Shown: positions 28,232 through 58,800 of the stretch, piece after piece
How the letters are laid out: each line of letters starts with the position of its first letter
Position numbering within the stretch: the stretch's first letter is position 1
Origin: Pontivivens insulae
Lineage (GTDB): Bacteria > Pseudomonadota > Alphaproteobacteria > Rhodobacterales > Rhodobacteraceae
Assembly: GCF_900302495.1 (NCBI RefSeq)
Contig: NZ_OMKW01000002.1
Span: forward strand, 248,001 to 312,000
Direction: 5' to 3'
Length of the DNA stretch: 64,000 nt
Notes under the pieces: generated by a model
The model's input: the letters and a program-made list of their open reading frames with translations, nothing else
The model's database searches: none
What the model was told of the DNA's origin: nothing
Program-made: the position numbers and the translations under genes

Positions 28232-28308
28232 CCCCGGCCTTGAGCCGGGGCCCCGCAGACACAGCGCGCAACGACCGCAGCTAGAGAGATCCCGGCGCAA
28301 GGCTGGGA
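28232..28308. repeat. Bipartite palindromic repeat, copy 1
   Basis: First palindrome CCCCGGC-CTTGA-GCCGGGG (28232-28250), second, degenerate palindrome TCCCGGCGCAAGGCTGGGA (28290-28308), with a 39-base spacer. It lies in the gap between the DUF2849 gene and the reductase gene. Related copies are at 31167-31224 and inside valS at 57085-57142. Confidence 0.7.
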
Positions 28309-31127: not shown

Positions 31128-31224
31128 CCCTGGCCTTGAGCCGAGGCGCACTCAACACCCGCCGCTCCCCGGGCTTGACCCGGGGCCTCTCTCTGCAGCG
31201 CGAGACCCCGGCTTGAAGCCGGGG
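31128..31224. repeat. Palindromic repeat cluster, copy 2
   Basis: A degenerate palindrome CCCTGGCCTTGAGCCGAGG (31128-31146) is followed by the 58-base bipartite element: CCCCGGGCTTGACCCGGGG (31167-31185), a 20-base spacer beginning CCTCT and ending GCGAGA, and CCCCGGCTTGAAGCCGGGG (31206-31224). It fills the 136-base gap between the DUF934 and reductase genes; the RNA would form two strong hairpins that could separate expression of the last operon gene. Confidence 0.75.
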
Positions 31225-54810: not shown

Positions 54811-55815
<1,005 letters not shown>

Positions 55816-55877: not shown

Positions 55878-58800
55878 ATGGCCATGGAAAAGAACTTCGA
55901 CGCTGCCACCTCCGAAGCTGCGATTGCCCGCGCGTGGGAGGCTGTAGGGGCGTTTCGGGCCGGGGCCAATGCCAAGGATGGGGCCGAGAGCTTCGCCATC
56001 ATGATCCCGCCACCCAATGTGACGGGCTCGCTCCATATGGGGCACGCCTTCAACAACACGTTGCAGGATATTCTGGTGCGTTGGCACCGGATGCGCGGCT
56101 TCGATACACTCTGGCAGCCGGGGCAGGACCATGCGGGCATTGCCACGCAGATGGTTGTTGAGCGCCGTCTGGCCGAGGCTGGGGAGCCGGGCCGCCGCGA
56201 ACTGGGCCGCGAGAAGTTTCTTGAGAAGGTTTGGGAGTGGAAAGCCGAGTCCGGCGGCACCATCATCGAACAGCTCAAGCGCCTTGGCGCCTCCTGCGAT
56301 TGGGAGCGCAATGCCTTCACCATGTCCGGCGCGCCGGGTGCGCCGGAAGGGGAGGAGGGGAATTTCCACGACGCGGTCATCAAGACCTTCGTGAAGCTCT
56401 ACGAGGATGGCCTGATCTATCGCGGCAAGCGCCTCACCAATTGGGACCCGCATTTCGAGACGGCGATCTCTGACCTCGAAGTCGAGAACCGCGAAGTGCC
56501 CGGCCACATGTGGCACTTCAAATACCCGCTCGCAGGTGGTGCGACCTATGAATATGTCGAGAAGGATGAGGACGGAAACGTCACCCTGCGCGAGACGCGC
56601 GACTACATCTCCATCGCCACGACCCGGCCCGAAACGATGCTGGGCGATGGTGCGGTCGCGGTCCATCCCGATGACGCCCGCTATGCGCCCATCGTTGGCA
56701 AGCTCTGCGAAATCCCGGTCGGCCCGAAGGAAACGCGCCGCCTGATCCGGATCATCACCGACGAATACCCGGACATGAATTTCGGCTCCGGTGCGGTGAA
56801 GATCACCGGTGCCCACGACTTCAACGATTACGGCGTCGCCAAGCGCAACAACATCCCGCTCTACCGCCTGATGGATCTGAAGGCCGCGATGCGCGCCGAT
56901 GGCCTGAGCTATGCCGACAGTGCGGCCAAGGCGCAGGCGATCCTCGATGGCGAGACCTTCAGCGAGGCGGAGATCGATCAGATCAACCTCGTGCCCGACG
57001 AATATCGCGGGCTGGACCGGTTCGACGCGCGCAAGAAGATCGTCGCCGCGATCACCGATGAGGGGTTGGCGGTGATGGTGACCTCCCCGGCCCCCGCGCC
57101 GGGGCCTCTGGAGGATGGCGAGATCCCGGATCAAGTCCGGGAAGAGCCCGCTCTCATCCCCCTCGTCGAAAACAAACCGATCATGCAGCCCTTCGGCGAC
57201 CGCTCCGGCGTCGTGATCGAACCGATGCTGACCGATCAGTGGTTCGTGAAGGCTGATGAACTCGCCAAACCGGCCATCGAGGCCGTCCGCTCCGGCGAGA
57301 CCCAAATCCTGCCCGAGCGCGACGCCAAGGTCTATTTCAACTGGATGGAAAACATCGAGCCCTGGTGCATCTCCCGCCAGCTCTGGTGGGGCCACCGCAT
57401 TCCGGTTTGGTATGGGCCGAGGCTTCCAAAGGATGGGGTCATATCGTCGGACTACGATGTAAGCGAGTTCGAGCACTTCTGTGCTGCTTCGGAAGCTGAA
57501 GCTATCGCTCTTGCCCAGAAGCACTATGGGTCCGACGTTCGTGTGACGGCTGACGATGGTGAGCCACTTGGTCGGCAGAGTTCTTGGTATGGTATTAGCG
57601 CAGCCACCGAGAGTGGCGGTGGAAGGGTCGATAGCGTGACCATCCATCGAGATGGCGACGTCCTAGACACCTGGTTCTCCTCTGGCCTCTGGCCGATGGG
57701 CACGCTCGGCTGGCCGGACGAGACCGAGGAACTCGCAAAATACTACCCCACCTCCGTCCTCGTGACGGGCTTCGACATCATCTTCTTCTGGGTCGCCCGG
57801 ATGATGATGATGCAAAAGCAGATGGACCCGGCAGGCCGCGCGCCCTTCCACACCGTCTATGTCCACGCGCTCGTCCGTGACGAGAAGGGGCAGAAGATGT
57901 CGAAGTCGAAGGGCAACGTGCTCGACCCGCTCGAACTGATCGACCAGTTCGGTGCGGACGCGGTGCGCTTCACGCTGACCTCCATGGCCGCCATGGGGCG
58001 GGACTTGAAACTTTCCGTCCCGCGGATCGAGGGCTACCGCAATTTCGGCACGAAGCTGTGGAACGCCACCCGCTTCGCCGAGATGAACGAGTGCAAGCCC
58101 GTGGGCCTGCCGGACGCGAAGGCCAAGGTGAACCGCTGGATCATCGCAGAGACCGCCCGCGCCAAGCTTGCGACCGACGAAGCGCTCGCCGCCTACCGCT
58201 TCAACGATGCGGCGAACGGCCTCTACGCCCATGTCTGGGGCACGGTCTGCGACTGGTATGTCGAGTTCGCAAAGCCCCTGTTGCAAGGCGATGACGAAGC
58301 GCTGAAGGCGGAGACGCAGGCGACCATGGCCTGGGCGCTCGACCAATGCCTGATCCTGCTGCACCCGATCATGCCGTTCATTACTGAAGAGCTGTGGAAG
58401 GGCATTACCGACCGCTCCGAAATGCTCGTCACCACCGATTGGCCGACCTACGGCGCGGAGCTGATCGACGCAGAGGCCGACGCCGAAATCGGCTGGATCC
58501 GCAAACTGATCGAGGAAATCCGCTCCGTCCGGGCGGAGATGAACGTGGCGGGCGGCGCCAAGACCGGCCTCGTGCTCGTGAACGCGGACGCCACCACCCG
58601 CCAACGCTTCGAGGACAACCGTGCGCTGGTCGAACGCCTCGCCCGCGTCGAAACGGTGGACTATGCCGATGCGGTGCCGCAGGGCGCTGTCACCCTCTCC
58701 ATCGAAGGGGCCACGATCTGCCTGCCGCTCGCGGGCCACGTGGACGTAGCCGCTGAGGGCAAACGCCTCGAAAAAGCGCTCGCCAAACTGGAGAAGGAGG

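Follow-up and report, generated by a model that had tools for sequence, protein, structure and literature searches.

Introduction

Short palindromic repeats lie mostly between genes. The closest described systems that also enter coding sequence are the CGTC-tagged REPs and the RPEs of Rickettsia. CGTC-tagged REPs are mostly dimers, occur mainly in Alphaproteobacteria, and have no known dedicated transposase (Di Nocera, De Gregorio, Rocco 2013, PMC3733652). Copies located within genes encode 20–30 residues, and tRNA synthetases are among the genes that carry them, including unnamed tRNA synthetases of E. litoralis and S. alaskensis, which may include ValRS (PMC3733652). Different REPs were reported at about one recB site in two Xanthomonas species, and Rhodobacter is not named in the main text of that paper (PMC3733652). 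RPEs of Rickettsia are found in frame in conserved genes, including those for Ile- and Phe-tRNA synthetases, where they occupy exposed loops; different RPE groups were described at one locus in different Rickettsia species, and the authors leaned towards a single diverged origin without excluding hot spots (PMC3767692). RPE-4, -6 and -7 share the motif ATGAC (PMC3767692), and RPE-4 and RPE-6 were equated with CGTC-4 and CGTC-1 (PMC3733652).

The locus reported here lies in a stretch of 64,000 nucleotides (the window) from a member of the Rhodobacteraceae. An earlier note, made from the letters of the window alone, had claimed that a palindromic repeat sits in frame inside valS, that two relatives of it lie between genes in the same window, and that an alphaproteobacterial counterpart of the Rickettsia elements had entered a tRNA synthetase.

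Results

A REP dimer in frame in valS

The element at 57085–57142 is a 58-base doublet of two hairpins, positioned in frame in valS and corresponding to ValRS residues 403–422 (Table 1). Its repeat nature, as claimed in the earlier note, was confirmed with a covariance model (R1) trained on nine doublets, none of them from valS and three from the window's genome (G000), including the 31167 element. The spacer ends CCTCT and GCGAGA given in the note were too specific, the defining inner motif in the relatives being CCTC...GAGR. When the valS stretch was folded in silico, as DNA or as RNA, the right hairpin was kept and the left one shifted; the RNA fold reached -39.6 kcal/mol (z -2.4), and the DNA fold of the valS copy consisted of separate hairpins (z -2.0). 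No target-site duplication was identified. Directly upstream of valS, the ORF at 54811–55815 contains ten perfect copies of a six-base tandem repeat, GCCTGA (55302–55361), encoding a Pro-Glu run, which is possibly a tract of variable length.

Table 1. Positions of valS and of the type A dimers within the window.
Feature	Position	Strand	Basis
valS, valyl-tRNA synthetase, 1024 aa	55878..58952	+	ORF; PF00133 E 1.7e-141
In-frame REP dimer, type A	57085..57142	+	pattern scan, reading frame, R1 match 58.6 bits, E 4.7e-9
Left hairpin CCCCGG-CCCCCGCG-CCGGGG	57085..57104	+	20 nt, 7-bp arms, 6-nt loop
Spacer CCTC...GAGA, 19 bases	57105..57123	+	sequence, strict pattern, doublet catalogue
Right hairpin TCCCGG-ATCAAGT-CCGGGA	57124..57142	+	19 nt, 7-bp arms, 5-nt loop
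Type A dimer between genes, length and layout as valS copy	31167..31224	+	R1 67.7 bits, copy in training set
Type A dimer between genes, long-spacer form	28232..28308	+	R1 40.6 bits, E 2.8e-5, outside training set

Copies elsewhere in the window and the genome

A mechanical scan detected eight CCGG-type hairpins in the window. The doublets at 57085 and 31167 each contributed their full pair, and the 28232 element contributed its first hairpin. Both proposed relatives of the valS copy were borne out by R1, the one at 28232 as a third, longer form owing to its longer spacer. The element at 31167 shares length and layout with the valS copy as claimed, but it is not the closest copy, which lies at C6:539968-540026, is 80% identical to the valS element and lies in no open frame over 600 nt. 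The DNA fold of the 31167 copy consisted of separate hairpins (z -2.8). Directly upstream of it, at 31131–31148, is a decayed single hairpin, TGGCCTTGAGCCGAGGCG, which may be an older REP unit. An Rfam scan of the window gave a tRNA as its sole match.

The strict gapped pattern CCGGNNCCNCN{6,36}GAGANCCCGG matched five sites in the 3.54 Mb genome (the three window elements, C6:535125 and C6:539984), and a control reading gave none. Across the family, the pattern matched in 52 of 149 genomes and the control reading matched about equally often; R1 was therefore used instead. The genome-wide covariance search, which the earlier note had proposed, revealed at least 21 distinct sites with E values of 1e-3 or below when both strands of a place were counted as one, a lower bound since 150 of 958 first-look candidates were scored. 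Besides valS these comprise 20 other sites, both window relatives among them; the R1 scores of the 31167 copy and of two other elements of this genome are not independent because these are in the training set. Within the genus, R1 matches (E 0.01, both strands counted) ran from 114 in G001 through 2 in G002 to none in G003, indicating that the type A family is gained or lost quickly. A Y1 (RAYT-type) transposase was considered as the mover and rejected for the window's genome, which had no PF01797 (Y1_Tnp) match, 5 of 14 control genomes being positive.

Build of type A

The type A catalogue contained 88 doublets (16 from the window's genome and 72 from ten other genomes), corresponding to 176 units selected as doublets. 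The constant build consists of an outer CG, a stem YCCCGG..., a loop, an inner CCTC and a spacer of 13–50 bases, followed by the mirror image. The two units were inverted throughout the 88 doublets, forming HH dimers with tags outside as in the CGTC superfamily, and the loops, mostly CTTGA (87 of 176) or CCTGA (50), agree with the 4–5 nt of that superfamily. Hairpin length was 19 nt in 166 of the 176 units, with arms of 7–8 bp. A CGTC, TGTC or CCTC tag across the outer flank and stem start was found in 58 units (6 of 32 in the window's genome), CGCC being commoner (81). The inner tail was CCTC in 124 units, in place of the CCA tail of the superfamily, and no stem began with AT (0 of 176), as opposed to the 8–9 bp stem with AT pairs. 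Type A was therefore not filed in the CGTC superfamily, since the defining AT pairs were absent from all 176 stems and the tail differs. By this build, the type A doublets are REP dimers of the Rhodobacteraceae.

Large stocks of type A were present in G112, G117, G099 and G363, with 40–69 R1 matches per genome, both strands counted. Two copies in G112 each formed a single long hairpin when folded as DNA (z -12.2 and -10.4), and the near-perfect palindromes in this genome suggest recent type A activity; the copies in the window are more diverged. Outside valS, R1 matches were found in 10 of 10 A-bearing genomes searched, although those in G073 were weak and G091 and G002 had few. Among five R1-searched genomes with an element-free linker, three (G003, G131 and G084) had no match and two (G001 and G334) had many; type A load does not predict valS occupancy.

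The ValRS linker as a probable insertion site

The roughly 20 residues encoded by the element fall in a connecting region, as the earlier note had stated, namely the hypervariable ValRS linker. The segment from GLDR to GDRS ranged from 37 to 95 residues across relatives in the alignment that the note had suggested. Within the window's genus, G000 carried the full dimer, G002 the right hairpin only, and G001 and G003 neither. The linker was of a short form in class-level relatives, and the corresponding stretch of Thermus ValRS is likewise short. The segment is thus not common to all related ValRS, and other copies exist in the genome, the two findings on which the note had let its reading depend. 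Its claim of an insertion into a tRNA synthetase is supported by the element-free linkers of G001 and G003, but the site was not used once: at least three repeat families have used it. A structure model, poor overall (mean pLDDT 60.7), placed the linker stretch between short strands at 400–402 and 426–428, with pLDDT <50 at 407–421. An in-frame palindrome in a conserved protein, as in Rickettsia, is observed here, and its location in an exposed loop is predicted from this low-confidence model.

The linker search covered 394 genomes of the family, of which 377 had a match and 30 loci were read, together with 80 loci of ValRS relatives. From 140 loci with valS, 125 were parsed, and removal of four duplicates left 121 distinct genes; 15 loci (L007, L038, L101-L113) were left out as unparsed or without this type of linker. 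The sample favours type A, because 26 of the 121 genes were picked, ranked by similarity to the window's linker. The same type A dimer was found in frame in valS of many genera. A REP-type hairpin was present in the linker of 18 of the 121 genes (A 11, B 3, C 4), the remaining 103 linkers matching none of the three patterns; in the subset L004-L083 (78 parsed loci, not chosen by linker), six genes had an element. The hairpins are restricted to the linker: the three patterns found no REP hairpin in the other 367,377 nt of the 121 genes.

Type B, CGTCATCC..., occurs in valS of L005, L014 and L017, the last being counted as B because its A-pattern match comes from the inner portion of that B unit. 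With its CGTC tag, AT pairs, 8–9 bp stem and 5-nt loop, type B (CGTCATCCTCGGGCTTGACCCGAGGAT and variants) belongs with the CGTC superfamily. Its genomic copies numbered 8 in G413 and 14 in G414, with none in the control; the genome of L017 gave two matches, one of which is the valS copy and the other doubtful, G073 gave one, and G000 and the genome of L061 gave none. Type C, GTAGGGTGGG... or GTAGGGCGGG..., is GTAG-tagged and occurs in valS of L006, L095, L097 and L222. Genomic copies were abundant (31 in G014, 72 in G023, 77 in G346 and 63 in G412; none in G000, and 0–2 in the reversed control), and this type shows the GTAG end and many-copy palindrome that characterize the GTAG superfamily. 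The valS hairpins of G014 (C21:140650) and G023 (C20:1517) each recur without change elsewhere in their own genome. Collectively, the family occupying valS was also present elsewhere in the genome in 4 of 4 C, 2 of 3 B and 10 of 10 A genomes searched.

The linker of L204 combines an A dimer with an adjacent B unit, and in that of L061 a decayed B unit neighbours an A-like hairpin, ACCCCAGCCCCCGAGCTGGGGT, with the valS-type loop and one swapped base pair. Mapped onto a ValRS tree computed with the linker cut out, the 18 bearers corresponded to 17 changes (A 11, B 2, C 4), which do not distinguish gain from loss, on a tree with support <80 on 38 of 118 inner branches. Linkers without an element were found in the closest relatives of L195 (five Ruegeria loci, L214). 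The record of L058, titled Nocardioides marinus, is probably mislabelled or contaminated, since its ValRS lies within a clade with Leisingera.

In-frame copies in other genes

Two further in-frame type A dimers lie between protein domains in G117. One, at L319:1021-1075, separates conserved domains in carB, which encodes the large chain of carbamoyl-phosphate synthase, and the other, at L311:997-1059 on the minus strand, lies between the Oxidored_nitro and PCP_red domains of a bchB-like protochlorophyllide reductase subunit. The right hairpin of the bchB-like copy reads APDQVRG, as in carB, and its frame is that of valS. These emerged from the 72 doublets of the other genomes, which gave 44 open frames extending 40 codons to each side of the copy, all submitted to Pfam; domains were found on both sides in 2 (carB and the bchB-like gene), only after the copy in 2, and in none of the other 40. 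For the window's genome, a script tested 20 of the 21 sites and three lower-scoring ones for open frames running across the element, and the 28232 and 31167 copies were tested a second time. Pfam searches of 18 such frames gave domains in 4, all starting after the element, and none in 14; valS is therefore the only in-gene copy with domain evidence among the sites checked in this genome.

Discussion

We consider it probable that the ValRS linker loop tolerates repeated REP insertion and is a recurrent landing site in the Rhodobacteraceae. A REP dimer would be copied into a length-tolerant surface loop of ValRS and translated as about 20 hydrophilic residues, leaving the enzyme unbroken. The element would thereby be mobile, entering new sites by a copying step in which a putative enzyme uses the REP hairpins. 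Dimers resident in each genome would enter the loop now and then; copies in one harmless frame would survive and copies elsewhere in the gene would be lost, nearly all in-gene insertions being purged by selection and those in the ValRS loop tolerated. The inserted peptide probably does nothing useful. Tolerance is also seen beyond this loop, in the G117 dimers that are in frame in carB and the bchB-like gene.

The main competing account is a single ancient type A insertion in the ValRS of early Rhodobacteraceae, mostly lost or eroded since, with paired hairpins kept in a few lineages and types B and C arriving later; we regard it as doubtful, though worth serious attention. A shared origin of most A copies is favoured by the 20-nt form of the left hairpin, seen in 8 of 9 valS left hairpins. 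Among six genomes other than that of the window, it was present in 5 of 6 valS dimers, compared with 1 of 130 hairpins of those genomes and G363 (Fisher p 1e-7); it is less rare in the window's genome (4 of 32 hairpins). The right hairpin is read in one frame in 11 of 11 valS A copies, the spacer peptides are similar (e.g. LEDGE, REDGEE, LAEGNQE), and the L061 hairpin has the same loop. The flanks of the A bearers are no more alike than those of other genes and thus show no sign of local valS transfer between bearers, which also rules against a spread of valS pieces between species. The common frame, however, is likewise used by B units at the valS site and by the carB and bchB-like copies, suggesting that it is selected and that a frame can be common without common descent. 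The A copies are unlikely to reflect simple neutral descent: five genera agree exactly in eight left-hairpin codons (log10 P -5.0, an overstated value, since the genera were chosen for sharing the hairpin), whereas only about one in four of the valS codons for conserved Ala, Pro and Gly shows such identity, and pairwise right-hairpin differences, which tend to pair, comprise 24 synonymous and 96 nonsynonymous changes, as against 13748 and 14645 in the rest of valS. This leaves either re-supply from a subtype of the genomic stock or an old copy held by some constraint. The single insertion would moreover require numerous losses along the tree, together with some cause for maintaining the hairpins that has no hold on most lineages, and it leaves B and C unexplained; these two types are separate events whichever origin holds for type A.

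Another rival reading is that the hairpins are maintained in valS for an action as mRNA or DNA, for example slowing translation between domains or regulating valS. The covariation score of the right hairpin was reached by 3 of 500 shuffles and that of the left by 30 of 500 (with 4 distinct rows only), and the RNA fold energy points the same way. Such a role is nevertheless very improbable, considering that 103 of 121 linkers match no pattern, that the number of right-hairpin pairs with changes on both sides is not unusual (154 of 500 shuffles), that the predicted folds have modest z-scores and do not contain the left hairpin, and that paired changes are equally expected from a genomic stock that varies likewise. 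Somewhat less improbable, but still unlikely, is that transposition is targeted, its machinery responding to some feature of the linker DNA such as an older REP remnant. The nested or adjacent insertions in L204 and L061 would fit such targeting; it is harder to reconcile with three families with different ends at one site, with insertion points that vary by several codons amid differing flanking codons, and with in-frame dimers in two other G117 genes. Chance resemblance in GC-rich Pro/Ala/Gly linker codons can practically be dismissed: PAPAPGP codons are GC-rich and prone to form hairpins, but R1 matched the valS copy at E 4.7e-9 without valS training, the strict pattern gave five matches against none in the window's genome, and the rest of the 121 valS genes gave no match.

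Recurrent landing in a tolerant linker thus remains our preferred reading. The hot spot is well supported for the valS site, since the families show no sequence relationship to one another and, in most cases, correspond to repeats resident in the same genome. We lean, with less assurance, towards the broader statement that this one ValRS loop is a family-wide landing site for at least three unrelated palindromic families from both REP superfamilies, some of them stacked. If true, the site would offer a natural archive of REP insertions, allowing their gain, their choice of frame and their erosion to be dated against the host gene, and the hot-spot question raised by Rickettsia would be settled for free-living bacteria. 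How REPs of the CGTC kind move is an unsolved problem, no transposase being known for them; a single coding site with at least three families provides an outgroup-rooted, frame-checked insertion record in a gene that cannot be lost. It also shows a route by which new peptide segments enter essential enzymes.

In-frame REPs in proteins are already known from the two papers cited above (PMC3733652, PMC3767692), and three families at one site were not found in the published record as consulted. Among the matches listed, the literature searched contained no report of REPs in valS or ValRS, no Rhodobacteraceae REP family with CCTC inner ends and no single coding site shared by three families that together represent the two REP superfamilies.

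As described in PMC3733652, CGTC-tagged REPs resemble type A in being short palindromes, in forming dimers with tags outside, in their 4–5 nt loops and in their alphaproteobacterial home. They differ in having complementary AT first pairs and a CCA end, which type A does not have; its outer tag is CGTC or CGCC and overlaps the stem, and its inner end is CCTC. Type B fits the CGTC consensus given there better than type A does. Compared with the GTAG-tagged REPs (Nunvar 2010, PMC2817692), type A lacks the GTAG end, and no match to a Y1 transposase was found in the window's genome, whereas type C combines GTAG with GGTGGGT...ACCCACC, the build of the Haemophilus REPs described in that paper. The view of the valS element as an alphaproteobacterial counterpart of the Rickettsia elements is supported, with the refinement that it is of a REP-dimer kind already published (PMC3733652). 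Compared by description only, the ends of type B contain the ATGAC of RPE-4, -6 and -7, which is absent from the type A consensus (PMC3767692). The Rickettsia insert is present in all aligned orthologs as presented there, whereas most relatives have no element at the valS site and the families there are unrelated in sequence; both systems nonetheless place in-frame palindromic inserts in tRNA synthetases, with different groups at one locus (PMC3767692).
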